Program-made: the position numbers and the translations under genes | The notes under the pieces: generated by a model | What the model saw: only the letters and a program-made list of their open reading frames with translations | Told to the model about the DNA's origin: nothing | Database searches by the model: none | Source of the DNA: Mesobacillus sp. AQ2 | GTDB taxonomy: Bacteria; Bacillota; Bacilli; Bacillales; Cytobacillaceae | Assembly: GCF_030122805.1 (NCBI RefSeq) | Contig: NZ_CP126080.1 | Coordinates: forward strand, 252,501-304,000 | Length of the DNA: 51,500 nucleotides | Reading direction: 5' to 3' | In this document: piece after piece, positions 5,204 through 30,765 of the stretch | Numbering within the stretch: the stretch's first letter is position 1 | Layout of the letters: the number at the start of each line of letters is the position of its first letter

Positions 5204-5231
5204 TATTTTTCACCTCTAATGCCTTAGGGAT

Positions 5232-5260
5232 AGTGTAACCCAATCCTATGGGCTCGGCAA
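5232..5260 (-). promoter_or_regulatory. Sigma-A promoter of the ABC-F gene
   Basis: On the minus strand TTGCCG (5260-5255), a 17-bp spacer and TACACT (5237-5232) form a good vegetative promoter about 30 bp from the start codon. Confidence 0.65.
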
Positions 5261-5300
5261 TATGTGCGGCCTGCTACAGGCGGTAAGGCAGAAAAATTTC

Positions 5301-5350
5301 ATCTTCTATATGTGAAGATAGAAACAAAGTTCACACACAAGTTTGTGAAA
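5301..5350. promoter_or_regulatory. Two inverted repeats upstream of moaC
   Basis: ATCTTC (5301-5306) and GAAGAT (5314-5319) form one dyad. TTCACA (5330-5335) and TGTGAA (5344-5349) form a second, containing the nested palindrome CACAAGTTTGTG. They lie 35-80 bp before moaC and could be operator half-sites or a leader hairpin. The arms are in the opposite order to the Rex operator, so I do not assign a regulator. Confidence 0.35.
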
Positions 5351-5383
5351 ATAGTGTATTATTTGGTTGAAAGGAGCTTGAAG

Positions 5384-5878
5384 ATGGCAGAATTTACGCA
5401 TTTTAATGAAGAGGGAAGAGCGAAGATGGTCGATGTCAGTGAAAAACCTGAGACGGTCCGTACGGCAGTCGCCCATTCAAGCATTACCGTTAATGAAGAT
5501 ATATATGTAAGGATTACTGAAAATAAGATGAAAAAAGGTGATGTCCTGGCAGTCGCGCAGGTTGCTGGCATCATGGCAGCCAAGAAGACGTCCGAAATCA
5601 TTCCGATGTGCCATCCGATTCCATTAACAGGAATTGACCTTTCGTTTGAATGGGAGCAAAATGGAAATGATTATATTTTAAATATCGCTGCAGCAGTTAA
5701 AACAAAAGGGAATACAGGGGTAGAAATGGAAGCGTTAACAGCAGCATCTGCATGCGCGCTGACTGTTTATGATATGTGCAAGGCCGTTGACAAAGGCATG
5801 GTGATCGGCAAAACCTATCTTGTGGAGAAAACTGGCGGGAAAAACGGCGATTTTAAGAGAGATGAGAAGTTAAAATAG
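5384..5878 (+). CDS. moaC: Cyclic pyranopterin monophosphate synthase MoaC
   Basis: MoaC acts with MoaA in the first step of molybdenum cofactor synthesis, turning the MoaA product into cyclic pyranopterin monophosphate in the cytosol. The 164-aa protein shows the family hallmarks [16 protein letters not shown] at the N-terminus, [27 protein letters not shown] and the C-terminal GGKNGDF block. I chose ATG 5384, with AAGGAG 7 nt upstream; an open frame reaches 5264 but the added residues are not MoaC-like. rex follows after 25 nt. The moaC-rex order matches B. subtilis ydiG-rex. Confidence 0.95.
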
Positions 5879-15268: not shown

Positions 15269-15637
15269 ATGCATGAAATGTCACTTATGTCAGAAATCAT
15301 TGAAATCGTTTCAGAGGACGCTGCTGCAAGAGGTTTTAAAAAGCTGGATCAGATTGATGTCATAGTGGGGGATTTATCCAATGTCCTGCCCGATGCCCTT
15401 GAGCTGGCGTTTCTCTTTTTTCAGAGACAGGAAGGCAGTTTGATTGACGAAGATAGCAGGCTGCATATTATTCGGGAAGAAGCAAAAGCCTGGTGCCCGG
15501 AATGCCGGTGTAATTTTCAGCCTGATTACAGGATTGCGCTTTGTCCGGAGTGTGGCATTCCCGGCAGCCTGCTGGTGAGCGGTGAAACGTTCAGGGTTGA
15601 ATCTTATGAAGGAAGGGATGAAGGCGATGAAAATTGA
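15269..15637 (+). CDS. hypA: Hydrogenase maturation nickel metallochaperone HypA
   Basis: HypA hands nickel to the hydrogenase large subunit together with HypB. The 122-aa protein has the nickel-binding N-terminus MHEMSL (Met1, His2, Glu3) and a zinc site made of two CPEC motifs (Cys76/79 and Cys92/95). I chose ATG 15269 because the MHE motif must be N-terminal; the longer open frame is not HypA-like. The ribosome-binding site is weak (GGTGGTG). First gene of the hydrogenase operon; it overlaps hypB by 11 nt. Confidence 0.96.
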   Translation: MHEMSLMSEIIEIVSEDAAARGFKKLDQIDVIVGDLSNVLPDALELAFLFFQRQEGSLIDEDSRLHIIREEAKAWCPECRCNFQPDYRIALCPECGIPGSLLVSGETFRVESYEGRDEGDEN

Positions 15638-16286
15638 GCTTGGCGCAGATGTGTTAAAGGATAACAATCTAGCTGCCGTTTATAATAGAAAACTATTTAA
15701 AGATCACAAAACACTTGTCATCAATCTCATGAGTTCACCTGGTGCCGGTAAAACGACCCTGCTGGAAGAAACAATCAAGTCATTGCGCCACGATTTTACT
15801 GTGGCCGTAATTGAAGGAGATCTGGCCACGGACCGTGATGCGGAGCGCTTGCGGTCTTTAGGGGTAAAAACAATTCAGATTAACACAGTGGGAGGCTGCC
15901 ATCTTGATGCGAGGATGATTGCCAAAACACTTCCGGAATTTGACCTGGAAGACATTGATATTCTCTTCATCGAAAATATAGGGAACCTGGTTTGTCCTTC
16001 AGGCTATGATTTAGGACAAGATTATAAAGTCGTCGTATTAAGCGTACCGGAAGGCAATGATAAAATCCCGAAGTATCCTGTGATGTTCAGGCGTACGGAT
16101 CTGACGATTATCAATAAGGTCGATCTCCTTCCATATGTCTCATTCAGTGTTGAGGAAGCTGAAAGAGACTTAGAGACTATTAATCCTGCGGCAGAGCTGA
16201 TGGTTTTGTCCGCGAAGACTGGTGAAGGTCTTGAAGGCTGGGTCAACTGGATCAAGGAAGCGTACAGGCAATGTACGGAGCAGTGA
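15627..16286 (+). CDS. hypB: Hydrogenase nickel-incorporation GTPase HypB
   Basis: HypB is the SIMIBI-class GTPase that drives nickel transfer from HypA. The 219-aa protein has the P-loop SPGAGKTT at 37-44, the metal-binding Cys91-His92 at the G-domain dimer interface with Cys123, and the guanine-specificity motif NKVD at 163-166. There is no histidine-rich nickel-storage stretch and no N-terminal CxxCGC motif, so it is the short form. ATG 15627 has GGAAGG about 10 nt upstream; an in-frame ATG at 15618 is too close to that site. It overlaps hypA and hypF. Confidence 0.95.
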   Translation: MKIELGADVLKDNNLAAVYNRKLFKDHKTLVINLMSSPGAGKTTLLEETIKSLRHDFTVAVIEGDLATDRDAERLRSLGVKTIQINTVGGCHLDARMIAKTLPEFDLEDIDILFIENIGNLVCPSGYDLGQDYKVVVLSVPEGNDKIPKYPVMFRRTDLTIINKVDLLPYVSFSVEEAERDLETINPAAELMVLSAKTGEGLEGWVNWIKEAYRQCTEQ

Positions 16287-18607
16287 GCATCAGGGTGACG
16301 GGAAGGGTGCAGGGAGTTGGGTTTCGGCCATTCGTTTATTCCCTTGCGAAAAAATTTCAATTGACGGGAACCGTCCAGAATAATCTTGACCATGTCATGT
16401 TGATTCTGGAAGGAAACGAAGATGAGCTAGAAAAAGCCGTAGCAGAACTAAAAAATTCGCCGCCACCTCTGGCAAAGATCGATAGAATTACCGCAACTCC
16501 AATTCCCCCTGTCTATTTTCAAGAATTTACGATTATTCCAAGCAAAAAAATTGATTCCTATTCCTTACCATGGATTTCTGCGGATGCGGCGATTTGCGAG
16601 GATTGCTTGCAAGAAATGAAAGATCCAACCGATCGGCGATATCAATATCCATTCATCAACTGCACACAATGCGGCCCGCGCTACACGATCATCCAGGTCC
16701 TGCCTTATGATCGTCCCAATACAACAATGAGTGAATTTACGATGTGTGAGCAATGTCAGGAAGAATATGATGATCGGTTGAACCGGCGGCATCATGCCCA
16801 GCCTATATGCTGTTCTGCTTGTGGGCCTGACATACGACTTTTTCATCAAAGCGGGGAATTGGCAGCACAGGATGAGGAGGCACTTTTTGAGACAGGTGAA
16901 CTTTTAAGAAGCGGCCATATTGTTGGGATAAAGGGAATCGGCGGTTATCATCTCGCATGTGATGCCCATCAAGAGAGGGCAATAGCTGAAATAAGAAAAA
17001 GAAAGAACCGTCCCCGCCGGCCTCTGGCGATTATGGCAAGGGATTTGGAAGTTGTTAAAAAGCATTGTCATCTTTCGAAAGAAGAAGAGGAAATGCTCAC
17101 CAGTACAGTCATGCCTATCGTGGTGTTGCGGAAAAGAAAGGAAAGCACCCTTCCGGAAGTGCTGTCACCAGGATTGTCCACGATTGGAATCATGCTGCCG
17201 TATACTCCCTTGCATCACAGGATATTTGAAACAAGCGGACTCGAAAGTATGGTCATGACCAGTGCCAACCCTTCAGGACTGCCGATTCCTTACAGAGAAG
17301 AAACTATCGACGGCTATTTATATGATTTTCTATTAACCCACAACCGGGACATTCACCTTCCGATTGATGATTCTGTCGTACAGTTTGACGGTGAGCATAT
17401 GCTCTTTCACAGGAGGGCACGAGGATTTGTGCCGGACCCTTTTCACACTCAATCAGAAGTTGATGGAATTCTTGCTTTTGGCGGAAATCAAAAAAATACC
17501 TTTGCGCTTGGGAAGGAAAAGGACATCGTGGTCAGTTCCTATATTGGCGATTTGGACAACGAAGAAATGATTCGTTTTTTTAAGGACCAGATCTATCACT
17601 ATCAAAAATGGCTGGATGTTGAAGTGAAGCATATAGCAATTGATCAGCATCCACTGTACGCATCAACGGAACTGGCAAAAGAATATGATTGCAACATCAT
17701 ACCCATTCAGCATCACCATGCCCATCATGTTTCCTGTATGGAGGATAACGGCATCGAGGAACCTTGTTTCGGGATCATCCTTGATGGAACCGGCTATGGC
17801 GATGACGGGAATATCTGGGGATTTGAGTTTCTCTACGGCGATGCCGATTCCTTTGAACGTCTTGGCCATCTGGAATATACCCCGCTTCCAGGCGGGGAGA
17901 AAGCCGTGAAAGAAACATGGAGAAATGCAGTCGGAATGCTCTATCAATACTGGCAAGAAGACGGAATAGAGATAGCAATGAAGCTATTCCCTGACAAAGC
18001 CAATGAAATCAACATTCTAAAAAAGATGATCTTGAATCAAATTCACACCCCGATGGCAGGTACTTGCGGAAGAATATTTGATGCAGTCAGTGCGATTCTG
18101 GGAACTTGTTTAACTTCCTCATATGAAGGGGAAGCGGCAATCAGATTATCAGATTACATGATGAAAGAGATGGACCATCCAGCTGACACTTATCCATTCC
18201 ATCTAAAAACAAACCAGGCAAATCAACTTCAACTAGACCTTTCCCCAATGCTCTCTCAAATCATCCAGGATCAATCCAACAGCGTCAGTACGGCCAAAAT
18301 CATTCACACTTTTCATTCAACTATTGTTTCCTGCTGTGAGGAGATGATTGAAAGATTAGCAGAAAGAAACCCGCACCTGAACAGGACGGTCATGTTGTCA
18401 GGGGGCTCATTCCAGAATTTATTTTTAACGAAAGAAATAAAAGCGAGGCTGGAGGCAAAAGGGTTTGCCGTTAAGACGCATAAAAACGTTCCCTGTCATG
18501 ATGGCGGCTTATCATTAGGGCAAATCATCATAGCTTCTCATGCTATTAAAAGTAAGGTGGTGGATCAATGTGTGCCTGGGAGTACCCGCAAAGGTGATGG
18601 AGATTGA
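16271..18607 (+). CDS. hypF: Carbamoyltransferase HypF (hydrogenase cyanide-ligand synthesis)
   Basis: HypF converts carbamoyl phosphate and ATP to carbamoyl-adenylate and passes the carbamoyl group to the HypE C-terminal cysteine, the source of the active-site cyanides. Domain order in the 778-aa protein is complete: acylphosphatase (GRVQGVGFRPFVY, residues 11-23), two zinc-finger-like modules with four CxxC pairs (about 105-185), a YrdC-like domain (about 195-380), and a Kae1-like domain with the metal-binding HHHAHH. The start at 16271 overlaps hypB by 16 nt; an in-frame GTG at 16283 is the alternative. The 3' end overlaps hypC. Confidence 0.96.
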   Translation: MYGAVSIRVTGRVQGVGFRPFVYSLAKKFQLTGTVQNNLDHVMLILEGNEDELEKAVAELKNSPPPLAKIDRITATPIPPVYFQEFTIIPSKKIDSYSLPWISADAAICEDCLQEMKDPTDRRYQYPFINCTQCGPRYTIIQVLPYDRPNTTMSEFTMCEQCQEEYDDRLNRRHHAQPICCSACGPDIRLFHQSGELAAQDEEALFETGELLRSGHIVGIKGIGGYHLACDAHQERAIAEIRKRKNRPRRPLAIMARDLEVVKKHCHLSKEEEEMLTSTVMPIVVLRKRKESTLPEVLSPGLSTIGIMLPYTPLHHRIFETSGLESMVMTSANPSGLPIPYREETIDGYLYDFLLTHNRDIHLPIDDSVVQFDGEHMLFHRRARGFVPDPFHTQSEVDGILAFGGNQKNTFALGKEKDIVVSSYIGDLDNEEMIRFFKDQIYHYQKWLDVEVKHIAIDQHPLYASTELAKEYDCNIIPIQHHHAHHVSCMEDNGIEEPCFGIILDGTGYGDDGNIWGFEFLYGDADSFERLGHLEYTPLPGGEKAVKETWRNAVGMLYQYWQEDGIEIAMKLFPDKANEINILKKMILNQIHTPMAGTCGRIFDAVSAILGTCLTSSYEGEAAIRLSDYMMKEMDHPADTYPFHLKTNQANQLQLDLSPMLSQIIQDQSNSVSTAKIIHTFHSTIVSCCEEMIERLAERNPHLNRTVMLSGGSFQNLFLTKEIKARLEAKGFAVKTHKNVPCHDGGLSLGQIIIASHAIKSKVVDQCVPGSTRKGDGD

Positions 18608-18803
18608 GGAGCAGAAAGCTCTGGTGGATGTGATGGGGTCAAGGATGCATGTCGGGATCCTGTTTGTCCCAGAAGTAAAAAAAGGAGACTATGTATTGCT
18701 TCATGCCGGACAGGCGATGACCGTAGTAGACGAGACCTTTGCACGCGAAAGCATCGAGGAATGGAGGAATATTATAAATGGAAAGTTTGGAGACGCTCTC
18801 TGA
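18570..18803 (+). CDS. hypC: Hydrogenase assembly chaperone HypC
   Basis: HypC carries the Fe(CN)2CO unit from HypD to the large-subunit precursor. The 77-aa protein begins MCLGVPAKV, where Cys2 is the essential ligand, and has the conserved VLLHAGQAM at 42-50. The start must be GTG 18570: only this puts Cys at position 2, and the overlapping ATG at 18568 is out of frame. AGGTGGTGG lies upstream. The gene begins inside hypF (overlap 38 nt) and ends inside hypD (overlap 26 nt). Confidence 0.95.
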   Translation: MCLGVPAKVMEIEEQKALVDVMGSRMHVGILFVPEVKKGDYVLLHAGQAMTVVDETFARESIEEWRNIINGKFGDAL

Positions 18804-19884
18804 TCCAGCTCTGGCCCGTCAGTCACTGGAGGCCGTGATTGAACTGGCTGGAGAGTTTAAAAAGAAATTTGGAAGAGTGCCAGTATTGATGGAAGTATGC
18901 GGCTCACATACAATGGCTTTTGCCAAATCGGGGTTAAAAACCAGGTTGAAGGATCATGTCAGGCTGATTGCCGGTCCCGGATGTCCGGTGTGTGTGACAG
19001 ACCAGAAATCAATTGATGCAATGATTCAATTGGCTGAAGGTTCCAACAGGATCCTGTGTACGTTTGGCGATATGATGCGCGTGCCTGGTTCCCGGGTGAG
19101 CCTGATGAAGTCAAAAACGGACGGCAAGGATATCCGGGTGATCTATTCACCATTGGACAGTGTGAAGATCGCCGAGGAAAATCCCAATAAGGAAGTCATT
19201 CTCCTCGGGATTGGCTTTGAGACTACGATCCCTATTTTGACTCTTGCCATTTGCGAAGCAGAAAGAAAAGAGTTGAAGAATTATAGTGTATGGATGACAA
19301 CGAAATTGGTGGAACCGGTTATGAGAGCTCTTCTGGATTCAGGAGAGGTCAAGCTGGATGGCTTTATTTTACCAGGACATGTTTCAGTCGTCTTAGGAAA
19401 AAAGAGCTTTGATTTTTTAGTGGAGGATTACCAGGTCTCTGGCGTAATAACCGGATTCGAACCCGTGCAGCTTTTAAGCGGCATCTATAAATTGCTGGAG
19501 CTCCTTCTCGAGAATAAGCAGGATGTATTAAATGACTATCCTTCTGTTGTAAAAGATGAGGGCAATCTTCACGCACAAAAATTGCTTAAGCAATATCTGC
19601 AGCTCCATGATGAAGATTGGCGTGGAATGGGCACGATTCCAGAAAGCGGTCTTGTCCTTAAGAACGAGTACGCACAATTTGATGCAAAAAAGCGGTATGA
19701 AGTATCTGTAGGAGAGCCGAGGAAAACAAAATGCCGCTGCGGTGAAATCATCAGGGGATTAATCAATCCCGAAAGCTGTGTTTTGTTTAATAAAGGGTGT
19801 ACACCAGCGCATCCGATTGGGCCTTGTATGGTTTCAACGGAAGGCACTTGTGCGGCACATTATCAATATATGAGAGGGGAATAG
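18778..19884 (+). CDS. hypD: Hydrogenase iron-cofactor assembly protein HypD
   Basis: HypD is the [4Fe-4S] scaffold on which HypC-bound iron receives its CN and CO ligands. The 368-aa protein shows MEVCGSHTMAF (Cys41), GPGCPVCVT (Cys69, Cys72) and the C-terminal iron-sulfur region with CRCGEIIRG, PESCVLF, KGCTPAHPIGPCMVS and EGTCAAHY. The GFETT motif is also present. ATG 18778 lies within hypC. It is 4 nt away from the hypE start region, which continues the translational coupling. Confidence 0.96.
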   Translation: MESLETLSDPALARQSLEAVIELAGEFKKKFGRVPVLMEVCGSHTMAFAKSGLKTRLKDHVRLIAGPGCPVCVTDQKSIDAMIQLAEGSNRILCTFGDMMRVPGSRVSLMKSKTDGKDIRVIYSPLDSVKIAEENPNKEVILLGIGFETTIPILTLAICEAERKELKNYSVWMTTKLVEPVMRALLDSGEVKLDGFILPGHVSVVLGKKSFDFLVEDYQVSGVITGFEPVQLLSGIYKLLELLLENKQDVLNDYPSVVKDEGNLHAQKLLKQYLQLHDEDWRGMGTIPESGLVLKNEYAQFDAKKRYEVSVGEPRKTKCRCGEIIRGLINPESCVLFNKGCTPAHPIGPCMVSTEGTCAAHYQYMRGE

Positions 19885-19886
19885 AC

Positions 19887-20891
19887 TTGGTCCAGAAAAT
19901 TGGTTTAGCGCATGGGGAGGGCGGTGAACTTACCCACCTGCTGATTCAGGATGTGTTTGTTAAGTCATTTGGCCATGGAGTCCTGACGAAACTGGATTCC
20001 GCTATTCTGCCTGGGATGATCAATAATATGGCTGTGACGACCGATAGCTTTGTCGTGAATCCGATCTTTTTCCCTGGAGGCAATATTGGAAAGCTGGCGA
20101 TAACAGGGACCGTAAATGATTTAGCTGTTTGCGGAGCAATCCCGCGGTTTATTACTGCAGGCTTCATTCTTGAAGAAGGGTTTCCGGTAAAGGACCTGAA
20201 GAAGATTGTCCAGAGTATGGCAGAAGAAGCGGAACGGGCGGGTGTCCATATTTTTGCCGGTGATACAAAGGTTGTCGAAAAGGGAAGTGCGGATGGTCTT
20301 TTCATCAATATAACCGGCATTGGGGAACTGCAGGAGATGCACCGTCCAAATCCGGAAGAAATGAAAAAAGGGGACGCGGTAATCGTAAGCGGTACAATAG
20401 GGGATCATGGCGTCTCAATTCTTGCCGCCCGAAATGAACTGGGACTGATGACAGATGTCACGAGTGATTGTTCATCATTGAATCATCTTATTCAAAAACT
20501 CATAGATGAAATACGAGGGGTTCGAATCATGCGGGATCCCACAAGGGGCGGACTGGCCACTACCCTTGTCGAGATATGTGAAGACTTTCAGGTGACGATC
20601 GAGCTTGAAGAAGGCTCGATTCCAATACGGAAGGATGTCCAGGGAGCATGTGATATTTTAGGATTCGATCCACTTTATTTAGCCAATGAGGGGAAAATTG
20701 TGCTGATAGTAGAATCGAGTTTGGCAGAGAATGCGATGAAAATAATGAAACAAAACGAATTCGGCAGGGATGCTGAAGTGATTGGCCAGGTATCATCGCT
20801 GGAGTCCGGTAAACTGTTGTTGAGGACTCCTTTTGGTACAACACGCAGGCTGCAGCGTCTCTCTGGCATGCTCCTGCCAAGAATATGTTAA
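19887..20891 (+). CDS. hypE: Hydrogenase maturation protein HypE (thiocarbamoyl dehydratase)
   Basis: HypE dehydrates the carbamoyl group received from HypF to a thiocyanate on its last residue and gives CN to HypC-HypD. The 334-aa PurM-like ATPase starts at TTG 19887 with GAGGGGA 7 nt upstream, giving MVQKIGLAHGEGG. FAGDTKVVEKG, MRDPTRGGLATTL and the C-terminal PRIC, where the final Cys carries the cyano group, are all present. A longer frame is open to 19797 but overlaps hypD. 56 nt separate it from the cytochrome b5 gene, the largest gap within the operon. Confidence 0.95.
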   Translation: MVQKIGLAHGEGGELTHLLIQDVFVKSFGHGVLTKLDSAILPGMINNMAVTTDSFVVNPIFFPGGNIGKLAITGTVNDLAVCGAIPRFITAGFILEEGFPVKDLKKIVQSMAEEAERAGVHIFAGDTKVVEKGSADGLFINITGIGELQEMHRPNPEEMKKGDAVIVSGTIGDHGVSILAARNELGLMTDVTSDCSSLNHLIQKLIDEIRGVRIMRDPTRGGLATTLVEICEDFQVTIELEEGSIPIRKDVQGACDILGFDPLYLANEGKIVLIVESSLAENAMKIMKQNEFGRDAEVIGQVSSLESGKLLLRTPFGTTRRLQRLSGMLLPRIC

Positions 20892-20947: not shown

Positions 20948-21469
20948 ATGAACAACATCCAGTTAATCAGATTACAGCTGAATCACCTTATCACCCAGGC
21001 ACGGCAAGACTTGTATTCACTTTCGAGAACGAGTGATTACTATAAAAACCAGCAAATTCTGCAGCGCATATGGGACTCGCTGTCTTCTATTCATTTTTTA
21101 AGTGAACTCCTTGCTAATCAGGCAAGTAAAAACTCTGGGCCAATACAGAATTCGATTCCGCAGCCTGCTACTACAAACCAGCCGCAAATACCGCCCATCA
21201 CTCCCCTGCCAAATCCAAATAACACAACAAACAATCAACGATCTTTTACGATACAAGAGTTAGCAGCATTCGATGGCAAAAACGGAATGCCTGCTTATGT
21301 TGCAGTGAATGGCATCGTCTATGATGTGACGAACAATCGTGCCTGGGCGGCAGCGACCCATTTCGGTCTGGTTTCGGGAAGGGAATATTCCCGGGAATTT
21401 GCCTCCTGTCATGCCGGACAGCAATCCATCCTTGCGATGCTGCCAGTGGTGGGGAGGTTAATGCAATGA
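20948..21469 (+). CDS. Cytochrome b5-like heme-binding domain protein in the hydrogenase operon
   Basis: This 173-aa protein has three parts. Residues 1-62 are helical and polar-amphipathic, without a signal peptide or a clear membrane span. Residues 63-98 are a Pro/Asn/Thr/Gln-rich linker. Residues 99-171 are a cytochrome b5-type domain: FTIQELAAFDGKNG, AVNGIVYDVT, then THFGLVSGREYS and LPVVGRL. His138 and His155 sit where the two axial heme ligands are found in short bacterial b5 domains; the classic HPGG is absent. AAGGAG precedes the ATG. The stop overlaps the small-subunit start (ATGA), so it is made together with the hydrogenase. It may accept electrons from, or anchor, the enzyme. I know of no characterised protein with this architecture. 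Confidence 0.75.
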   Translation: MNNIQLIRLQLNHLITQARQDLYSLSRTSDYYKNQQILQRIWDSLSSIHFLSELLANQASKNSGPIQNSIPQPATTNQPQIPPITPLPNPNNTTNNQRSFTIQELAAFDGKNGMPAYVAVNGIVYDVTNNRAWAAATHFGLVSGREYSREFASCHAGQQSILAMLPVVGRLMQ

Positions 21470-22371
21470 GCCAGTTTATTTTACCGCCAGAACCGTTAAC
21501 GAATGAGGCGATTGCTGAGAGACTTACAAATACAGCTATCAAACAACTTGATCGGGGTTTGATCAAGAAAAGAAACTTAGTATACCTGGAATTGAACGGA
21601 TGCTCAGGGAATATTATTTCGTTATTGAATGGGCAAAATCCTGATTTCGAATATGCGTTAAATTCAATGGTCGATTTGCGGTACAGCAACAGCCTTATGG
21701 CAGCTGAAGGAGAACAGGCAATTGCAAAACTGATGGAGGTAATGAATGATGATTTCATATTGGCTGTTGAGGGAGCAGTCGCTCTAAAAAATAACGGTCT
21801 TTACAATATTATCGGCAGCCGGCAAGGAAAGCCGCTTACGGGTCTTGAGGCTGCCCGGATGCTTGGAGACAAAGCGGAGAGCATCCTCGCTGTTGGTGCA
21901 TGCGCGACACATGGCGGTGTTTCTGCTGCCAGGCCGAATCCATCTGAGTCAATGGGCCTGCAAACTGTTCTTCCAGAAAAGAAGATGATTAAACTGCCAG
22001 GGTGCCCTGTCCATCCAGACTGGTTTTTGGGAACACTTGCCCATATGCTCCTTTATGGAGAACCAGAAACGGATAATCTTGGCCGCCCGCTGATGTTTTA
22101 CAGCACCCTCATCCATGATCGCTGCCCGAGGAGGCCGTTTTTTGACAGGGGGATATTTGCAGAGAAATTGGGAGATAAAACATGTCTTTTCAAGCTTGGA
22201 TGCCGCGGGCCGGTGACAAGGATTGATTGCCCGACCAGGCAATGGAACGGACATGTGAACTGGCCGATAAGGGACGATACCCCATGCATCGGCTGTGCGC
22301 AATTTGGTTTTCCGGATGCGATGGCCCCGTTTATCAGCTATGACACGACAAGGGTGGTGAAGGATGAGTAA
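21466..22371 (+). CDS. hupS: [NiFe]-hydrogenase small subunit, group 2-like, no Tat signal
   Basis: The small subunit carries electrons from the NiFe site through three Fe-S clusters. In this 301-aa protein the proximal-cluster residues are Cys46, Cys146 and Cys180, but the second position of the usual CxxC is Asn49 (motif CSGN). The distal set His217, Cys220, Cys240, Cys246 and the medial set Cys255, Cys274, Cys277 are present, the latter with a Pro in place of a fourth Cys, as for a [3Fe-4S] cluster. CSGN and NPSES..GLQ resemble cyanobacterial HupS and mycobacterial Huc (group 2a). There is no twin-arginine signal and no C-terminal anchor, so the enzyme is cytosolic. It overlaps the b5 gene (ATGA) and the large subunit by 8 nt. 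Confidence 0.92.
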   Translation: MSQFILPPEPLTNEAIAERLTNTAIKQLDRGLIKKRNLVYLELNGCSGNIISLLNGQNPDFEYALNSMVDLRYSNSLMAAEGEQAIAKLMEVMNDDFILAVEGAVALKNNGLYNIIGSRQGKPLTGLEAARMLGDKAESILAVGACATHGGVSAARPNPSESMGLQTVLPEKKMIKLPGCPVHPDWFLGTLAHMLLYGEPETDNLGRPLMFYSTLIHDRCPRRPFFDRGIFAEKLGDKTCLFKLGCRGPVTRIDCPTRQWNGHVNWPIRDDTPCIGCAQFGFPDAMAPFISYDTTRVVKDE

Positions 22372-23770
22372 GCGAATTGTCATTAACCCACTAACACGGA
22401 TCAGCGGCTTTATGGAAATTGATGTAACGGTAGAAAACAATCAGGTGGTCGAGGCAAAAACAAAAGGCAATTTATTCAGAGGGTTTGAGCAAATGCTGAT
22501 CGGGAGAAGTCCATTTGATTCCGTTTATTTTACCCAGCGGATCTGCGGGATTTGCTCGGCTGCACATTCGATGGCTTCTTCTTTGGCGTTGGAGGATGCC
22601 CTGAAGATTGAGCCGATGGAACAGGGGAAGTACTTAAGGGATATCATTCATTGCTGTGAATTTCTGCAAAATCATATACGCCACTTTTATCAATATACAG
22701 TCCCCGATTTTGTGAAAATAGAACAAAATTCGCTGTTCCAAGCCGATCATGATGACTTCCGGCTGCCAACTGAAATCAATGACCGGATATCCAAGCATTA
22801 CTTTGAGTCTCTCACAATCAGCAGGCTTGGCCACCAGATGCTCGCGGTCCTCGGAGGAAAAGCCCCACATAACCATGGGGTTTTCATTGGCGGGATCACG
22901 ACCCAGGCAACCGCAGAAAAGGTGGTCCACCTGGATTCGATTTTACAGAAGATATCTGCGTTCATTGATGAAAAAATGATTCCGGATGTATATGATATCG
23001 CCCGATATTATCAAGAATACTACCAGTTGGGCAGCGGATACGGGAATTTGCTGTCATATGGCTCTTTTAATAGCTATAAAGAGCTCGGGACTTTATATGT
23101 TGATCCACTTGTATTGACTGGGGAAGGTATGCAGGCTTTTGACGAAAGTAAGATCCTGGAGAAAATTGATTACTCTTACTTTACATCAACAGAACAAACG
23201 TATTCACCTGGTGAAGTCGTCCCGGAACCTGATATGGATAAGAAGAATGCGTATTCCTGGGTAAAAGCGCCAAGATATAACGGGCTTCCATTTGAGGTGG
23301 GGCCGCTGGCAAGACTGATACTAAGCGGGAATTATGATAATGACATCTCCGCTATGGACCGGACCATTGCCAGGGCGCTTGAAACGAAAAAAATCGCTGA
23401 GATCATGAAGTTATTGCTCCAGCAGATCATCCCGGGAGTGGATGTGCAGAAAAAATATGAACTTCCAGAATCAGCTTCTGGAAGGGGATTGGTCGATACA
23501 ACAAGAGGAGCCCTGGGACACTGGCTTAAGATAAAAGATAAGAAGATCTCATTCTATCAAATCATCACTCCTTCAACATGGGATTTTTCAACAAGGGATG
23601 ATAATGGCTACAGAGGGACCGCTGAACAAGCGCTGATCGGGACACCCATCCAGAATCCGGATAAGCCTGCCGAAATCGGAAGAATCCTGCGTTCTTTCGA
23701 TCCATGCATGTCCTGTGCGACTCATGTATACACTCCGGGAAAACAAGTGAAAACAATAAAGGTGTTCTAA
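22364..23770 (+). CDS. hupL: [NiFe]-hydrogenase large subunit
   Basis: This 468-aa subunit holds the NiFe(CN)2CO centre that splits H2. Motif L1 is RICGICSAAH with Cys61, Cys64 and His68; motif L2 is DPCMSCATH with Cys448, Cys451 and His454. The sequence runs 14 residues past His454, which the maturation peptidase should remove after nickel insertion. INPLTRISGFMEI at the N-terminus and GGKAPHNHG are typical of uptake-type enzymes. All four terminal Cys ligands are intact, so the enzyme should be active. Its start overlaps the small-subunit stop, and its TAA overlaps the peptidase start (TAATG). Confidence 0.95.
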   Translation: MSKRIVINPLTRISGFMEIDVTVENNQVVEAKTKGNLFRGFEQMLIGRSPFDSVYFTQRICGICSAAHSMASSLALEDALKIEPMEQGKYLRDIIHCCEFLQNHIRHFYQYTVPDFVKIEQNSLFQADHDDFRLPTEINDRISKHYFESLTISRLGHQMLAVLGGKAPHNHGVFIGGITTQATAEKVVHLDSILQKISAFIDEKMIPDVYDIARYYQEYYQLGSGYGNLLSYGSFNSYKELGTLYVDPLVLTGEGMQAFDESKILEKIDYSYFTSTEQTYSPGEVVPEPDMDKKNAYSWVKAPRYNGLPFEVGPLARLILSGNYDNDISAMDRTIARALETKKIAEIMKLLLQQIIPGVDVQKKYELPESASGRGLVDTTRGALGHWLKIKDKKISFYQIITPSTWDFSTRDDNGYRGTAEQALIGTPIQNPDKPAEIGRILRSFDPCMSCATHVYTPGKQVKTIKVF

Positions 23771-24225
23771 TGGAGAAGGTCATCGTTTTAGGCATTGGGA
23801 ATATGCTGATGATGGATGATGGGATCGGTATTTACTTGGTAGAGGAGCTATCCAGGACGAATTGTGACCCGGATGTTTTGTTTTTGATTGGTGAATCGGA
23901 TATTGATTATTGCCTGGAGCAAATAATGGGCGCTCCAATAGTGATTATTATTGATGCTGCCGTTTCAGGGAAGACACCAGGCAGTCTTACGGTTTATGAG
24001 CTTGCTGATTTGCATGAACACTGCGAGTTGGCTTTTTCCCCGCATGATTTCCACCTGTTTAATCTATTATATGGGCAAAAAGAATCCATCAGGGGATACC
24101 TCTTGGGCGTGGAGCCTGATGAAATCAGGTTTCATATCGGATTAAGCAAAACCTTACAAGATCAATGGGAAAGAATATTGGAGGATGTAACACAAACTAT
24201 AGACGAATTGATAGGAAAGAATTGA
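23770..24225 (+). CDS. Hydrogenase maturation endopeptidase (HyaD/HycI family)
   Basis: This 151-aa protease cuts the C-terminal extension off the nickel-loaded large subunit. The N-terminus VIVLGIGNMLMMDDGIG carries the family motif GxGNxLxxDDG with the nickel-sensing acidic residue. Further nickel ligands are expected in IIIDAA and in SPHDF, where the His lies in the usual position. ATG 23770 overlaps the large-subunit stop; the frame is open upstream but that part runs inside the large subunit. It is the last gene of the ten-gene operon, followed by the hairpin at 24260-24294. Confidence 0.93.
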   Translation: MEKVIVLGIGNMLMMDDGIGIYLVEELSRTNCDPDVLFLIGESDIDYCLEQIMGAPIVIIIDAAVSGKTPGSLTVYELADLHEHCELAFSPHDFHLFNLLYGQKESIRGYLLGVEPDEIRFHIGLSKTLQDQWERILEDVTQTIDELIGKN

Positions 24226-26413: not shown

Positions 26414-27010
26414 TCAACAAGTTGGAGCATCAGCATCTTTTTCGGAAGATTTACTATGGTCCTGAGAAATTTGACTATCAACCGGATCATCAGATGAGTT
26501 GCTGTTTTCCTCGGAAAGAGAGCTGTCAGTCGCATTATCAATGGCACTGCTGTCATTTTGCGCGAGTGCACTATCCGTAGGAGCATTTGCTGAACTGCTC
26601 CCGCCCTGTGCAATGCTGCTGTTAGTAGGGTCATCTGCAGCGTTACTGTGATCCTGAGCAACAGCGCTATTAACCGGGTCATCGACTGCGTTACTGTGTT
26701 TTACAGCAACCGCAGAATGGTCTACATGGCCGATGGAGATTTGTTCAGGGTTTTGATGCTGGCTTAAATTAAGATGGAGATTGAGCTGAAGAGGATAGTT
26801 CTGTAAGATGTTCTGCAGCTTGCTGTTAAAATCCCGACCTGAATGCGTTTCTATGAGAGTCGAAAGGTTCTTGTTGATTTCCTTCTTCAGTCTTGGCTCC
26901 AGATATTCAGCCATCATCTTTTTGAATTCTTTCCTGATTTTCTTCGTTAATTCACCAGACAGCTCCTCCAGGATTTCTTTCTTCATTTGTTCCTTAGTCC
27001 ATTTATCCAT
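26414..27010 (-). CDS. 16-residue-repeat protein, paralogue 1 (with N-terminal helical domain)
   Basis: I do not recognise this 198-aa protein. Residues 1-85 are a charged, helical segment (MDKWTKEQMKKEILEEL then further Lys/Glu heptads), likely a coiled-coil. Then comes the cap ISIGHVDHSAVAVKH, shared with its two neighbours. Five 16-residue repeats follow, of the form S-N-A-x-D-D-P-x-x-S-A-V-A-Q-x-x, and then a short tail ending in Cys. The small, alternating Ala/Val/Ser pattern suggests a beta-solenoid or beta-roll with one coil per repeat. There is no signal peptide. AGAGGTGA precedes ATG 27010. Third gene of the minus-strand trio. Confidence 0.7.
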   Translation of the reverse strand: MDKWTKEQMKKEILEELSGELTKKIRKEFKKMMAEYLEPRLKKEINKNLSTLIETHSGRDFNSKLQNILQNYPLQLNLHLNLSQHQNPEQISIGHVDHSAVAVKHSNAVDDPVNSAVAQDHSNAADDPTNSSIAQGGSSSANAPTDSALAQNDSSAIDNATDSSLSEENSNSSDDPVDSQISQDHSKSSEKDADAPTC

Positions 27011-27055
27011 AAAATTCACCTCTTTTTCTAATACTTCTCAGCGGCTGGAAATGAC

Positions 27056-27098
27056 ACAATCGATCCCCACTGCACATGGGCTGTGGGGGATCGATTGT
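27056..27098. terminator. Perfect 13-bp hairpin between repeat-protein genes
   Basis: ACAATCGATCCCC (27056-27068) and GGGGATCGATTGT (27086-27098) are exact complements around a 17-nt loop. It follows the stop of paralogue 2 by 12 nt. No good T-run follows on the minus strand, so it may be a weak terminator or an mRNA-stabilising stem that sets the ratio of paralogue 1. Confidence 0.55.
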
Positions 27099-27109
27099 TA
27101 TTTCTTATT

Positions 27110-27460
27110 TTAAAAAACTTCCGTGGACTTGCTGTCGTCGAGGGCGACAGAGCTGTCGAAAGGATTGTCGGATGCATTGCTGTCGTCTTGAGCAAGAGCA
27201 CTATCGAGAGTATTATCCGCAGAATTGCTCTTACCCTGTGCAACTGAAGAATCAACAGGATTTTCAGCTGCATTGCTCTTTCCTTGAGCAACAGAACTGC
27301 TTACCGGGTTATCTGAAGCATTACTGAACCTTTGAGCAACGGCACTTGTATCGGGGTTGTCGGATGCGCTGCTGCCTTTTAATGCAACGGCTCCATTTTC
27401 AATGTAGCCAATAGCAAATTGCTTGCAGCTTTGGGACTTGTTTTTTTCATCTTTGTACAT
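27110..27460 (-). CDS. 16-residue-repeat protein, paralogue 2
   Basis: A 116-aa protein of unknown function made almost entirely of the repeat domain. A short polar N-terminus (MYKDEKNKSQSCKQ) leads to the cap FAIGYIENGAVALKG, then five 16-residue repeats such as SNASDNPVSSSVAQGK, and a 7-residue tail SKSTEVF. The last repeat and tail are nearly identical to paralogue 3, pointing to a recent duplication. No signal peptide, one Cys. AGGAGTGAATTTAG precedes the ATG, matching the leader of paralogue 3. It lies 38 bp after paralogue 3, so they are probably cotranscribed. Confidence 0.7.
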   Translation of the reverse strand: MYKDEKNKSQSCKQFAIGYIENGAVALKGSSASDNPDTSAVAQRFSNASDNPVSSSVAQGKSNAAENPVDSSVAQGKSNSADNTLDSALAQDDSNASDNPFDSSVALDDSKSTEVF

Positions 27461-27498
27461 CTAAATTCACTCCTTTTTTTTACTAGTAATGAACCATT

Positions 27499-27945
27499 TT
27501 AAAAAATCTCTTTGGCCTTGCTGTCATCCAGTGCAACAGCGCTGTCGAATGGATCGTCAGAAGCGTTGCTGTCATCCTGAGCCAGGGCACTGTTATCAGT
27601 GTCGTTTGCAGAGCTGCTCTTATCCTGGGAAACAGAACTATTCGTTCCGTCATCCAATGAATTGCTTTGGCCCTGTGCAACAGCACTGTCATCTGGATTG
27701 CCAGAAGCATTACTGTAATCCTGTGCAACGGCACTATTGGTTGGGTTATCTGATGCATTACTGTCATCGATGGCAATGGCCCCATTAGTGATGTAGCCAA
27801 TCGCGATCTGCTCTGGTTCCTGCTCCTGCTTATACCACTTTTTATCCTCTTTCTTGTCGCATTTGTCTTTCTTTTTGGATTTTTTGCGGTCTTTTTCGGG
27901 ATAATCCCACTGTGGCATTGGATACTTCTTGTACTCTCTATACAT
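27499..27945 (-). CDS. 16-residue-repeat protein, paralogue 3 (basic N-terminus)
   Basis: A 148-aa protein of unknown function. The first ~45 residues are rich in Lys, Tyr and Trp (YREYKKYPMPQWDY, then KKSKKKDKCDKKEDKK), quite different from the other two. The shared cap IAIGYITNGAIAIDD follows, then five 16-residue repeats and the tail SKAKEIF. I chose ATG 27945 with AAAGGAG 8 nt upstream; a GTG at 27954 is too close to that site. First gene of the trio, read away from the SoxB-like gene. The basic head could bind an anionic polymer or surface. Confidence 0.7.
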   Translation of the reverse strand: MYREYKKYPMPQWDYPEKDRKKSKKKDKCDKKEDKKWYKQEQEPEQIAIGYITNGAIAIDDSNASDNPTNSAVAQDYSNASGNPDDSAVAQGQSNSLDDGTNSSVSQDKSSSANDTDNSALAQDDSNASDDPFDSAVALDDSKAKEIF

Positions 27946-28307
27946 TTCATTCACTCCTTTTTACTAGATTCCTTAGCATTATATTTTCGTTTCTTTTTTT
28001 TGAATGGACAAACAAACTAATTGGTTTTTAAAAATGTAAAATGTACGTTTGTATCAGTAAAGCCCCGATTTTCATTTGCTGCCAGATAATAGCAGGCAGG
28101 CCGTTTAGTTTTGGAGTAAAGTCAGCAAGTTTTTCGCAGGAATAACTTACAATTACAAACTGATATTCATGTTAATAACTATTCTGGATAAATATAACTA
28201 TTTTCAGGAATGTAATGACCACCAAAACATTGATAAATAAAGCCTTTTTTATAAAATTAATGATAACTGAATTATTAGGTAAAAAGACTGAATATTAAGA
28301 ATCGTCG
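27946..28307. other. Divergent spacer, little recognised
   Basis: This spacer lies between paralogue 3 and the SoxB-like gene. On the minus strand a TATAAT (27984-27979) lies about 35 bp before the paralogue 3 start, but no matching -35 is seen. The rest is AT-rich with no RNA fold or small gene that I can support. Confidence 0.4.
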
Positions 28308-28426: not shown

Positions 28427-30254
28427 TTGAAGACTTCCATTTATCGTAAAGTGGCTGCAAGTATTATAACAGTCGCTTTTTTAACCACTGGGTATACAGC
28501 TTATGCAAACCTGACCGAATTAAAAGAGAATAGACATGCAAATCCTTTGGAGGGGGAAGAGCATATTCAACAGTCGGGCTGGGATGAAAGCGCTGACAAA
28601 TCGGTGACACTTATGCAGCTTGGAGACCTTCATGGGCATCTTATACCCAGGAAAAACCTTAATACCGAAAACTTTGAAGGGACTGTGGGCGGGCTTGCCC
28701 GAATTGCAACGGTAATCAAGGAAATTAGAAAAGAATCTTCCCAAAACCTGTTGTTTAACATAGGGGACACACTCCATGGCGGAGCAGAGGCACTTTATAC
28801 TGAGGGCAAGGCAATGACAGATATTTTAGATAAATGGCGGATTGATGGGTATGCTTCTGGAAACTGGGATTTTCTTTATGGAACCGAACGCTATCTTGAT
28901 CTTTTCGAGAATGGGCGCTGGGGAGCTGTCGCGGCAAATCTATATTACGAGGGCGAGCCATACGCCGACAAGGCTGGTGAGCGGGTCCTTCCGCCTTACC
29001 GGGTAATCAAGCGGGCTGGTCTTAGTGTGGGAATTGTAGGTTTTACAAGTGAACGCGGACCAACTGTTGGAACAAGCACGACAAAAGGTTTCCGGTTTAC
29101 TGGGGAAGGTGAAGAATTGCCTGAAATGATTCATGAATTGCGTGAAAAAGAAAAGGTAGACTTAATCATCATGATTTCTGAGCTCGGTCTGGCCAAGAAT
29201 CTTCAGCTGGCAAACCGCTATCCTGGGGTAGACGTTCTTCTGTCAGCGGATATGCATGAAGAGACTCCTAGGCTGATTGAGACAAAGTCAGGCACCCTTG
29301 TTTCCGAGGTGAGCCATGATGGAATAGCTGTCGGGCAGCTTGATCTCCAGGTAGGAGAAGAGGGCATTACAGGCTGGCGCTATGAATTACATAAAATCGA
29401 CGAAAGCATAAAAGAGGATGAAGGCACTTCAAAACTAGTCGAAAAGGAACGAGCCATGTTTGTGAAAGGCAAAGGGTTTCACTCACACGAAAAATCCAAT
29501 AAATAAGACAATTTTGTATAAACCTATTGATACAGTTATTGGTGAGGCAAAAAAACCTCTCTATCGAGGGAATTTTTCTGATCATGAAATGCCGGGTGTA
29601 GTGGAGGGTTCTTCTCATAACTTCCTGGCAGATGTGTTCCGGAAAGAAGCTGGAGCCGACATTGGCACAATCCGGGGTTTTCGTTATGGGACCCACGTTG
29701 CAACTGGCGATATCCGTCTGGAGGATATTTATCACTTTATCCCGGTGGCCCCTTTCATTGCGAAGGGAACGATAACAGGGAGCCAGCTTCACGACCAGAT
29801 AGAGAGGAGCCTGAACGGCTCACTAAATCCGGATCCATTCAAATGGACAGGAGGATGGGTCCAGGCATACAGCGGTGTTCGTTATGAACTTGATCCATAT
29901 GCTCCTGCCTTCGGTAAAGCAAGTAATATTGAGATATTTGATCAAAAGAAAAGAATCTGGCAGCCTCTTGATATGGACAAACAGTACACTGTTGCCGGGT
30001 ATTGGTATCCAGGCCGGCCGGATGACATTGGAACTGGACTTAAGATCAATGATAATGCTCAGACAGTAAATGGTCCTGACGGCAATCCGCTGGACGCGAC
30101 CGAAGTAGTGGCAAGATACTTATCTAAAAATCAGGCGGATCCTGAATTGGGGCGAGTTAAGCTACTTCATAAGCTGCCTGAACCAGCCTTTGGAAATAGG
30201 GAAATCCAGCCACTGAATGGAGTGCCTGAAAGAGTCGGTACAATTCAAAACTAA
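28427..30254 (+). pseudogene. SoxB/5'-nucleotidase-like secreted metallophosphoesterase, frameshifted
   Basis: Two frames make one protein. Frame A (28427-29506) starts at TTG with AGGGGGA upstream. It has a signal peptide ending AYA and a calcineurin-like N-domain with DLHGHL, GDTLHGG and GNWDF. Frame B (from about 29490 to 30254) carries the 5'-nucleotidase C-domain: PIDTVIGEAKKPLYRG, GSSHNFLADVF, FIPVAPF. Removing one A from the A5 run at 29490-29494 joins them as HENPINKTILYKPIDTVIG. GNWDF with following YG resembles the SoxB motif HWEFTYG. Two usual metal-ligand histidines are replaced (SH by SE, GHTH by ADMH). It is either a pseudogene, a base-calling error, or a two-part product; I favour one of the first two. 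Confidence 0.75.
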
Positions 30255-30288: not shown

Positions 30289-30765
30289 ATGCGAGAGAAG
30301 ATAGTCTTTATTGTAATGACAGCATTGCTTTTAACTACAGGCCTTTCCTGGGCTGCAGCCAAAACAGACGGAGAAACGGGACGGCCAAGTACGACGCCGC
30401 AGGGACATTATCAGGTTGTCTGGCAGGTCTCTGATCCTGCTGGAACAAATGAAAGCACTTGGGCTGGAGTTTTGAACAATATTGAAAATTCACTTTCTGA
30501 AATCGGTGAGGACAAAATGGAGATTGAAGTGGTAGCTTTCGGAGCAGGCATCCATATGCTTAGCAAGGAAAAAAGTTCTCCAGAGCTTCAAGAGCGTATC
30601 CGGAAACTTCAAGAACGAGGCGTGGTATTTGCAGCCTGCGCAAACTCAATGGCGAAAAACGGCTATGTTATGGAAGATATGGTCGAGGGAGCAATCCAAG
30701 TGCCATCAGGAGCAGCAGAAGTGATTCGCAAACAGCGACAGGGCTGGATTTATATGCAGTCTTGA
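30289..30765 (+). CDS. Secreted DsrE/DsrF-like sulfur-relay family protein
   Basis: A 158-aa protein with an N-terminal signal segment (residues 1-23, ending SWAAA) followed by a DsrE-like fold: YQVVWQVSDP, a central VLNNIENSL helix, IEVVAFGAGIHML, and GVVFAACANSMAKNG. The Cys in AACANSM sits where DsrE-type proteins keep a reactive cysteine. Such proteins bind or transfer sulfane sulfur, or act in redox. It follows the SoxB-like gene by 34 bp and is closed by a hairpin, so the two form one unit. A sulfur-related role outside the membrane is inferred; no other sox genes are in the window. Confidence 0.75.
   Translation: MREKIVFIVMTALLLTTGLSWAAAKTDGETGRPSTTPQGHYQVVWQVSDPAGTNESTWAGVLNNIENSLSEIGEDKMEIEVVAFGAGIHMLSKEKSSPELQERIRKLQERGVVFAACANSMAKNGYVMEDMVEGAIQVPSGAAEVIRKQRQGWIYMQS

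Follow-up and report, generated by a model that had tools for sequence, protein, structure and literature searches.

A predicted cytochrome b5-fold protein, encoded in an overlapping gene pair with a Tat-less group 1 [NiFe]-hydrogenase of Bacillota, as a candidate electron-transfer subunit

The stretch of Mesobacillus sp. AQ2 DNA analysed here (contig NZ_CP126080.1, positions 252,501 to 304,000 of the forward strand; 51,500 nucleotides (nt), hereafter the window) carries a [NiFe]-hydrogenase operon in which the gene for a protein with a predicted cytochrome b5 fold (the b5 protein) lies directly upstream of the hydrogenase small-subunit gene. An earlier reading of the sequence alone (the original prediction) had described a helical N-terminus, a linker and a b5-like domain encoded directly 5' of the small subunit, and had proposed that the two genes are translationally coupled. 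The open reading frames (ORFs), Pfam and AlphaFold2 confirmed the arrangement, and the coupling was borne out by an overlapping stop and start. The genes and features of the locus are as follows (Tat, twin-arginine translocation; pLDDT, predicted local distance difference test; aa, amino acids).

15269..20891, + strand: maturation genes hypA, hypB, hypF, hypC, hypD and hypE, 5' of the b5 gene (HypA, F, C, D and E by Pfam/NCBIfam)
15582-16286, + strand: hypB, assigned by reading its sequence, with no profile search
20948-21469, + strand: b5-partner gene, ORF of 173 aa
20948..21130, + strand: N-terminal two-helix hairpin, residues 1-61 (AlphaFold2 helices 3-27 and 31-61, pLDDT about 97)
21131..21238, + strand: disordered linker, residues 62-97 (pLDDT < 50 at residues 71-95)
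21239..21466, + strand: cytochrome b5-fold domain, residues 98-173 (AlphaFold2, b5 fold from residue 98)
21359..21361, + strand: His138, candidate axial heme ligand 1, invariant and aligned to a His of 6nzx and 6vz6
21407..21412, + strand: invariant Cys154-His155, with His155 as candidate axial heme ligand 2
21452..21457, + strand: Shine-Dalgarno-like GGGAGG for the small-subunit gene, within the final b5 codons (from the sequence)
21466..22371, + strand: [NiFe]-hydrogenase small subunit, 301 aa, without Tat signal (PF01058 and PF14720; TIGR00391 above cut-off)
21601..21612, + strand: proximal-cluster motif C46-S-G-N49, with Asn for the second Cys (alignment)
22364..23770, + strand: [NiFe]-hydrogenase large subunit, 468 aa (PF00374, 364.5 bits; RICGIC and DPCMSC motifs by reading)
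23770..24225, + strand: hydrogenase maturation protease (PF01750 and TIGR00072 above cut-off)

The b5 stop codon overlaps the small-subunit start by 4 nt (ATGA), with the GGGAGG site 8 nt 5' of the ATG, and the protease start shares 1 nt with the large-subunit stop (TAATG). Overlap between the b5 stop and the small-subunit start was seen in all 28 testable Bacilli loci, that is, those with a b5 gene in which the alignment of the small subunit began at residue 1; it spans 1 nt in 21 of them, 4 nt in 6 and 8 nt in 1. The final b5 codons of these loci contain a GGGAGG-like site.

The only family match of the upstream gene was to Pfam Cyt-b5 (PF00173; 24.9 bits against a cut-off of 23.7, residues 102-171), and it did not fall into DUF1641/HucM. 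In structure comparison the predicted fold matched b5 proteins of archaea as well as the sulfite oxidase b5 domain (1sox). For the N-terminal hairpin no family could be assigned, as its structure match list was full of unrelated two-helix hairpins. Across 41 loci (L052 and L057 were dropped, their b5 gene not being upstream), median pairwise identity was 68% for the b5 domain versus 19% for the hairpin, and the distances of the b5 domain correlated with those of the small subunit (r 0.80). In L053 and L119 different short sequences take the place of the hairpin, and the linker ranges from 6 to 153 aa, with 64.8% P/N/Q/S/T/G over 54 sequences (those of the window and L002 being nearly alike). 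A well-kept b5 domain on a leash of such variable length suggests that the domain could be a mobile carrier. The genome itself encodes a single Cyt-b5 domain and a single small subunit.

The b5 protein has histidines at positions 13, 49, 138 and 155. His138 and His155, together with Phe139 and Cys154, were invariant in 54 of 54 sequences (the window and 53 loci) and in each of the 120 database homologues listed of 768. His138 meets a histidine of the solved b5 proteins 6nzx and 6vz6; in single-sequence alignments to the same two proteins His155 falls at or beside a gap. Where hydrogenase-type b5 reads His-x-Gly (columns 155-157), 15 of 17 aligned stand-alone b5 sequences read Pro-His-Gly, and 20 stand-alone b5 loci gave Pro-His in 18, neither motif in two and Cys-His in none. 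Because none of these stand-alone b5 sequences shows it, the one-residue-shifted Cys-His is, as far as alignments can tell, the mark of the hydrogenase-type family. In c-type CxxCH heme sites, too, a Cys precedes the axial His in the same order, and by analogy a thioether bond of Cys154 to the heme is conceivable.

To see how regularly the two genes travel together, we scanned one genome per species for small subunits, which yielded 74 loci (L002-L075), and located b5 genes by profile. A b5 gene was present in 53 of these loci, directly 5' and on the same strand in 51; in L052 it lies 3' of the large subunit and in L057 it lies on the opposite strand, about 1 kb off. The other 21 have no b5 gene in the locus (L028, L031, L055, L058-L075), and the contig of L031 starts 206 bases before the small-subunit match. 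Among 397 genomes of the window's own order, the same 28 carried a b5 match of at least 124 bits and a near-full-length small subunit of at least 69% identity, and the two genes were adjacent in all 28 (in broken frames in G132). Six other genomes showed domain-only b5 matches without such a small subunit. Any small-subunit match at all was found in 49 genomes of the order, and in 21 of these it was distant (at most 44%) or a remnant; the count of small subunits excludes a 24-residue remnant (83% identity) in G082, which lacks b5, and another piece of this kind in G324. Within the genus, both genes are present in five of the 10 genomes sampled and absent from the other five.

The pattern recurs in clostridia. 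In 255 genomes from the class of G403 (Pseudobacteroides), 13 had a small subunit of at least 377 bits and all 13 also had a Cys-His b5. In 10 of the 13 it was intact and directly 5', in G610 it came after the large subunit and in G490 it was on another contig. Of 12 further clostridial genomes with a b5 match, 10 had no Cys-His b5. Fisher's exact test gave p 1.4e-43 for the own order and 4.6e-20 for the clostridia, values that are overstated since kinship was ignored. The claim of a dedicated b5-hydrogenase gene pair is upheld by the pairing in 51 of 74 loci and by this co-occurrence, and one outcome that the original prediction had named as its refutation, b5 homologues located mostly away from hydrogenases, did not arise. 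The b5 protein and the hydrogenase form a real, conserved two-part module of Bacillota.

We then asked which hydrogenase the b5 protein accompanies. The original prediction had placed the enzyme in group 2, and this assignment was rejected on both Protein Data Bank scores and tree placement. The large subunit scored 342 bits against the group 1 structure 5jsu versus 171 against Huc (7uus), and the small subunit 185 against group 1 1frv versus 96 against Huc (7uur). The tree comprised 62 of the 74 loci and 6 references, hand-picked, with 12 near-duplicate, broken or short rows omitted; it was rooted at the midpoint and contains some long branches, the Streptantibioticus row being very long. In it HoxB and HucS split from the other rows (support 100/98, with the midpoint root and the long HucS branch in mind), and the window small subunit did not group with HucS on that long branch, where membership of group 2a would have placed it. 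The b5 carriers fall in one Bacillota branch of 47 rows (99/95) with an inner core of 42 (100/98), separate from E. coli Hyd-1 and Hyd-2, Cupriavidus HoxK and HoxB and a mycobacterial HucS. This branch also includes a metagenome-assembled genome (MAG) of Chloroflexota, one Bacteroidota-labelled record, and L028, L031, L055 and L058 without linked b5; H. mobile lies just outside it. The absence of a Tat signal had been predicted correctly: by eye, no twin-Arg motif was seen in small-subunit residues 1-40. These comparisons place the window hydrogenase in a Tat-less branch of group 1.

The ligand positions of the proximal cluster are C46, N49, C146 and C180, so that one of the four is not a Cys, and in the alignment the medial and distal cluster ligands are kept. 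Every one of the 53 loci that include b5 has C[SAT]GN, and Asn stands at this position in 118 of the 120 small-subunit homologues listed of 4794. The motif is not specific to b5 carriers, since L028, L031 and L061 share it although their loci lack b5, nor is the Asn a novelty: earlier reports describe it for groups 1f and 2a (PMC5364354) and for Nostoc punctiforme (PMC4070099), as well as an Asp there in group 1h (PMC7174314). In one enzyme, according to PMC4070099, natural-type substitutions at cluster ligands all kept activity, and in Huc all three clusters are given as [3Fe-4S] (PMC10017518). We infer that the Asn variant may make the enzyme uptake-biased or air-tolerant. In the neighbouring branch, the small subunit of Heliobacterium chlorum (L059, 9156-9929) reads S-G-D-N where C-x-x-C is expected, so that, going by the motif, the first proximal Cys seems to be lost too.

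Classical group 1 hydrogenases hand their electrons to a membrane cytochrome b or a periplasmic cytochrome c3. In the window the highest 19-residue Kyte-Doolittle means were 0.99 for the b5 protein, 1.19 for the small subunit and 1.05 for the large subunit, and hence none of the three has a transmembrane-like stretch. That no cytochrome b is linked, another point of the original prediction, agrees with the ORF families present in at least 5 of 61 loci (first 90 residues, by eye), among which we saw no membrane cytochrome; cytochrome c3 was not searched for. As far as these shared ORF families reach, a membrane partner near the operon was set aside. A dedicated cytochrome b elsewhere in the genome was likewise set aside, as the one Ni_hydr_CYTB gene (PF01292) above cut-off sits in an operon that resembles formate dehydrogenase operons (genes read by eye), 4.4 Mb from the hydrogenase on the contig, or about 0.4 Mb if the contig is circular.

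On balance we lean towards the b5 protein being a dedicated, soluble and tethered electron-transfer subunit of the cytosolic [NiFe]-hydrogenase that replaces the membrane cytochrome b. In such a scheme H2 would be split at the NiFe site of the large subunit, and the electrons would run along the small subunit's proximal (Asn-variant), medial and distal iron-sulfur clusters and reach a b-type heme that His138 and, most likely, His155 coordinate in the b5 domain. Tethered by the hairpin and the disordered linker, the b5 domain would be free to swing from the hydrogenase to an acceptor downstream and back, and that acceptor may not be the same in aerobic Bacilli as in fermenting Clostridia; the b5 protein would stand where classical group 1 enzymes have their membrane cytochrome b. 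Heme binding, the second ligand, a physical complex, the direction and route of the electrons and the role of the tether are what we infer here from the genes and models. If true, this would be a new type of electron output for H2 oxidation, used by aerobic Bacilli and fermenting clostridia alike, and it would account for the way in which group 1 enzymes without a Tat signal are connected to metabolism. Less likely, though conceivable, is a bolder version, in which b5 is the outlet of the whole cytosolic group 1 branch, with a heme site of a new kind (a shifted His, and an invariant Cys that binds the heme covalently or tunes it) and a new acceptor. In this version one and the same module would serve both menaquinone-using aerobes and fermenters without quinones or recognised heme synthesis, so that its acceptor would be cytosolic and new for hydrogenases.

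Several observations weigh against a dedicated electron-transfer subunit. The pairing has exceptions: in G669 the b5 gene has decayed at the hydrogenase locus and an intact copy lies elsewhere; b5 is unlinked to the hydrogenase in G490, Heliobacterium mobile (G678) and C. bowmanii (G422); and G663 and G590 carry a hydrogenase-type b5 without this small subunit (PF00374 has a partial match in G663 and none in G590). A further look at 14 genomes, chosen from the exceptions and from more distant branches, found linked Cys-His b5 in G676 and G421, the unlinked genes of G678 and G422, only the stand-alone type in G680, and no hydrogenase-type b5 in G398, G675, G420, G677, G679, G681 and three others. 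Small subunits stand without such a b5 in G398 (L028, 78% identical) and G675 (L031, a MAG) and, more distantly related, in G420, G677, G679, G680 and G681. A natural fusion of b5 with the small subunit was dropped as evidence of contact, none being present among the 120 homologues listed of 4794 (longest 317 aa). The two orphan genes and the 21 loci without b5 are also what speaks for b5 as a chance neighbour or passenger gene, an idea to which we give practically no credence given the co-occurrence in 28 of 28 and 13 of 13 genomes and the overlapping start in 28 of 28 loci. As for the heme site, the profile alignment sets His155 opposite a Pro, with the second His of 6nzx and 6vz6 one residue later, so that heme ligation is secure by homology for His138 only. 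The two candidate axial histidines of the original prediction therefore hold up in being invariant, but not in both occupying homologous b5 positions, a notion rejected because the profile and the mixed alignments put His155 one residue off. The simplest reading is a loop shorter by one residue, with His155 still a candidate and most likely the second axial ligand. Heme supply is a further difficulty. A ferrochelatase match was found in 7 of 27 genomes (marginal in G418) and none in the other 20, while AhbD had no match above the family cut-off in any of the 27. Only two of the 16 genomes without a menaquinone marker (described below) have an AhbD-like match above 300 bits, a match that is itself unspecific, as Bacilli with ferrochelatase also score high. 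Several of the genomes surveyed are MAGs; G399 and G412, complete chromosomes by title, nevertheless carry b5 with neither ferrochelatase nor a strong AhbD match. To judge from gene content, known routes of heme synthesis seem to be closed to some b5 carriers, and the species of PMC9431212, in the passages seen, pose the same puzzle, with only part of the heme pathway found. Together with the shifted second His, this would suit a clostridial b5 fold that works without heme, as an apo scaffold or with another ligand bound via His138, Cys154 and His155. We regard that as very unlikely, since His138 and His155 are invariant in clostridial carriers too and heme could be taken up or made by a siroheme-type route, which the tandem AhbD-like genes of G403, G409, G417 and G421 may represent.

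Two other roles for the b5 protein have to be considered. On a mycobacterial plasmid a DUF1641 gene, which we take to be HucM, lies directly 5' of the small subunit, as b5 does here, and b5 might similarly be a membrane or menaquinone adaptor that docks or oligomerises the enzyme and passes H2 electrons into the quinone pool. Huc needs no integral membrane subunit to reduce menaquinone (PMC10017518), and the five Bacilli genomes tested (G000, G397, G398, G400, G401) all have MenD or MqnA, which a menaquinone link fits. Across 25 hydrogenase genomes, however, MenD exceeded its cut-off in 5, MqnA was present in 4 others and 16 had neither; all 16 carry b5, three of them show weak MenD-like matches and several are MAGs. 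A general menaquinone link across carriers is not supported by these gene counts, and membrane docking, which the original prediction had offered as an alternative, was not borne out, the protein having no transmembrane stretch. The hairpin, moreover, is its least conserved part and is replaced outright in two loci, and we consider such an adaptor distinctly unlikely. An assembly factor, or a heme or redox sensor that controls the hydrogenase with Cys154 as the switch, appears unlikely as well: the position of b5 between the hyp and structural genes, the invariance of Cys154 and the occasional unlinked or orphan hydrogenase-type b5 would suit it, but the b5 gene overlaps that of the small subunit and was found in 53 of 61 loci versus 40 each for the hypD and hypE clusters (some contigs end early), so that it goes with the structural genes.

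The pairing had been thought undescribed, which holds in part. In the passages seen, PMC9431212 covers eight Clostridium acetogens, whose group 1a small subunits are reported to lack a Tat signal; three species, C. carboxidivorans, C. drakei and C. scatologenes, have a predicted cytochrome b5 gene nearby. There the b5 neighbour is mentioned only, without analysis of motif, architecture or co-occurrence. Our locus L052 (Clostridium sp. OS1-26), of the same genus as those enzymes, shares its tree branch with the window enzyme. No other description of the pairing appeared among the matches listed in the open-licence literature, and what was seen of PMC3551663, PMC5609068 (on b561), PMC5186783, PMC12976888 and PMC12542780 had no bearing on b5. 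As far as we have seen, the pairing has been mentioned in print and not characterised in the open-licence literature.

Compared with known systems, the window enzyme shares homologous subunits, medial and distal cluster ligands, and protease and Hyp genes with HyaABC and HoxKGZ, and differs from them in having no Tat motif, no nearby membrane cytochrome b, a soluble b5 gene 5' and the proximal CxGN. In sulfite oxidase (fold match 1sox), too, a flexibly linked b5 domain sits next to a redox enzyme, and this domain undergoes hinge motion; there it is one chain with the Mo enzyme, whereas the window b5 is a separate protein alongside a hydrogenase. The archaeal proteins 6nzx and 6vz6 and PGRMC1 (4x8y) share the b5 fold, and the first two the His at position 138; unlike the window protein they have the second His one residue later, no preceding Cys and no hairpin with linker, and in what was seen they have no hydrogenase tie. 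Huc (group 2a) resembles the window enzyme in being Tat-less, in its CSGN proximal motif, common to HucS and the window small subunit, and in an accessory gene directly 5' of the small subunit; it differs in its tree branch and in that accessory, a DUF1641 protein and not b5. Huc oxidises atmospheric H2 (PMC10017518), with the Asn-variant proximal motif in common.

Some individual b5 loci deserve mention. The region 241-4691 of L117 (G669) holds an unlinked Cys-His b5 gene and, sharing its strand, CbiM/CbiO/CbiQ-like genes for cobalt/nickel transporters (by eye); the b5 product has an extra C-terminal domain that also occurs in L113 and L115. A Cys-His b5 with QPQNGT-type repeats in its linker is encoded at 4958-5545 (- strand) of L112; it is an orphan, its clostridial genome lacking this type of small subunit. 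In G220 (L030, L128) a low-complexity linker of 153 aa goes with a more distant hydrogenase (68-69%), whose small subunit groups with that of Ammoniphilus L033; from this grouping, the module may have been exchanged as one unit. L003 (Chryseobacterium sp. ISL-80) and L022 (Pseudomonas sp. ISL-84) are Bacillus-type loci with small subunits 96% and 83% identical, and the titles of these records are probably wrong. The hydrogenase genes of L056 and L129, and in L129 also b5, are in broken frames, through decay or sequencing error.

Elsewhere in the window, three adjoining ORFs at 26414-27954 (- strand) encode degenerate repeats of the SNASDNPxDSAVAQ type, for which we found no Pfam match and no tandem array at the DNA level. 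An ORF with a calcineurin-like phosphoesterase domain (28427-29506, + strand) is followed in a different frame by one with a 5'-nucleotidase C-terminal domain (29514-30254, + strand), an order that we take to be SoxB-like; by their sequence the two look like one gene in two frames. A DsrE-family gene (30289-30765) follows them.

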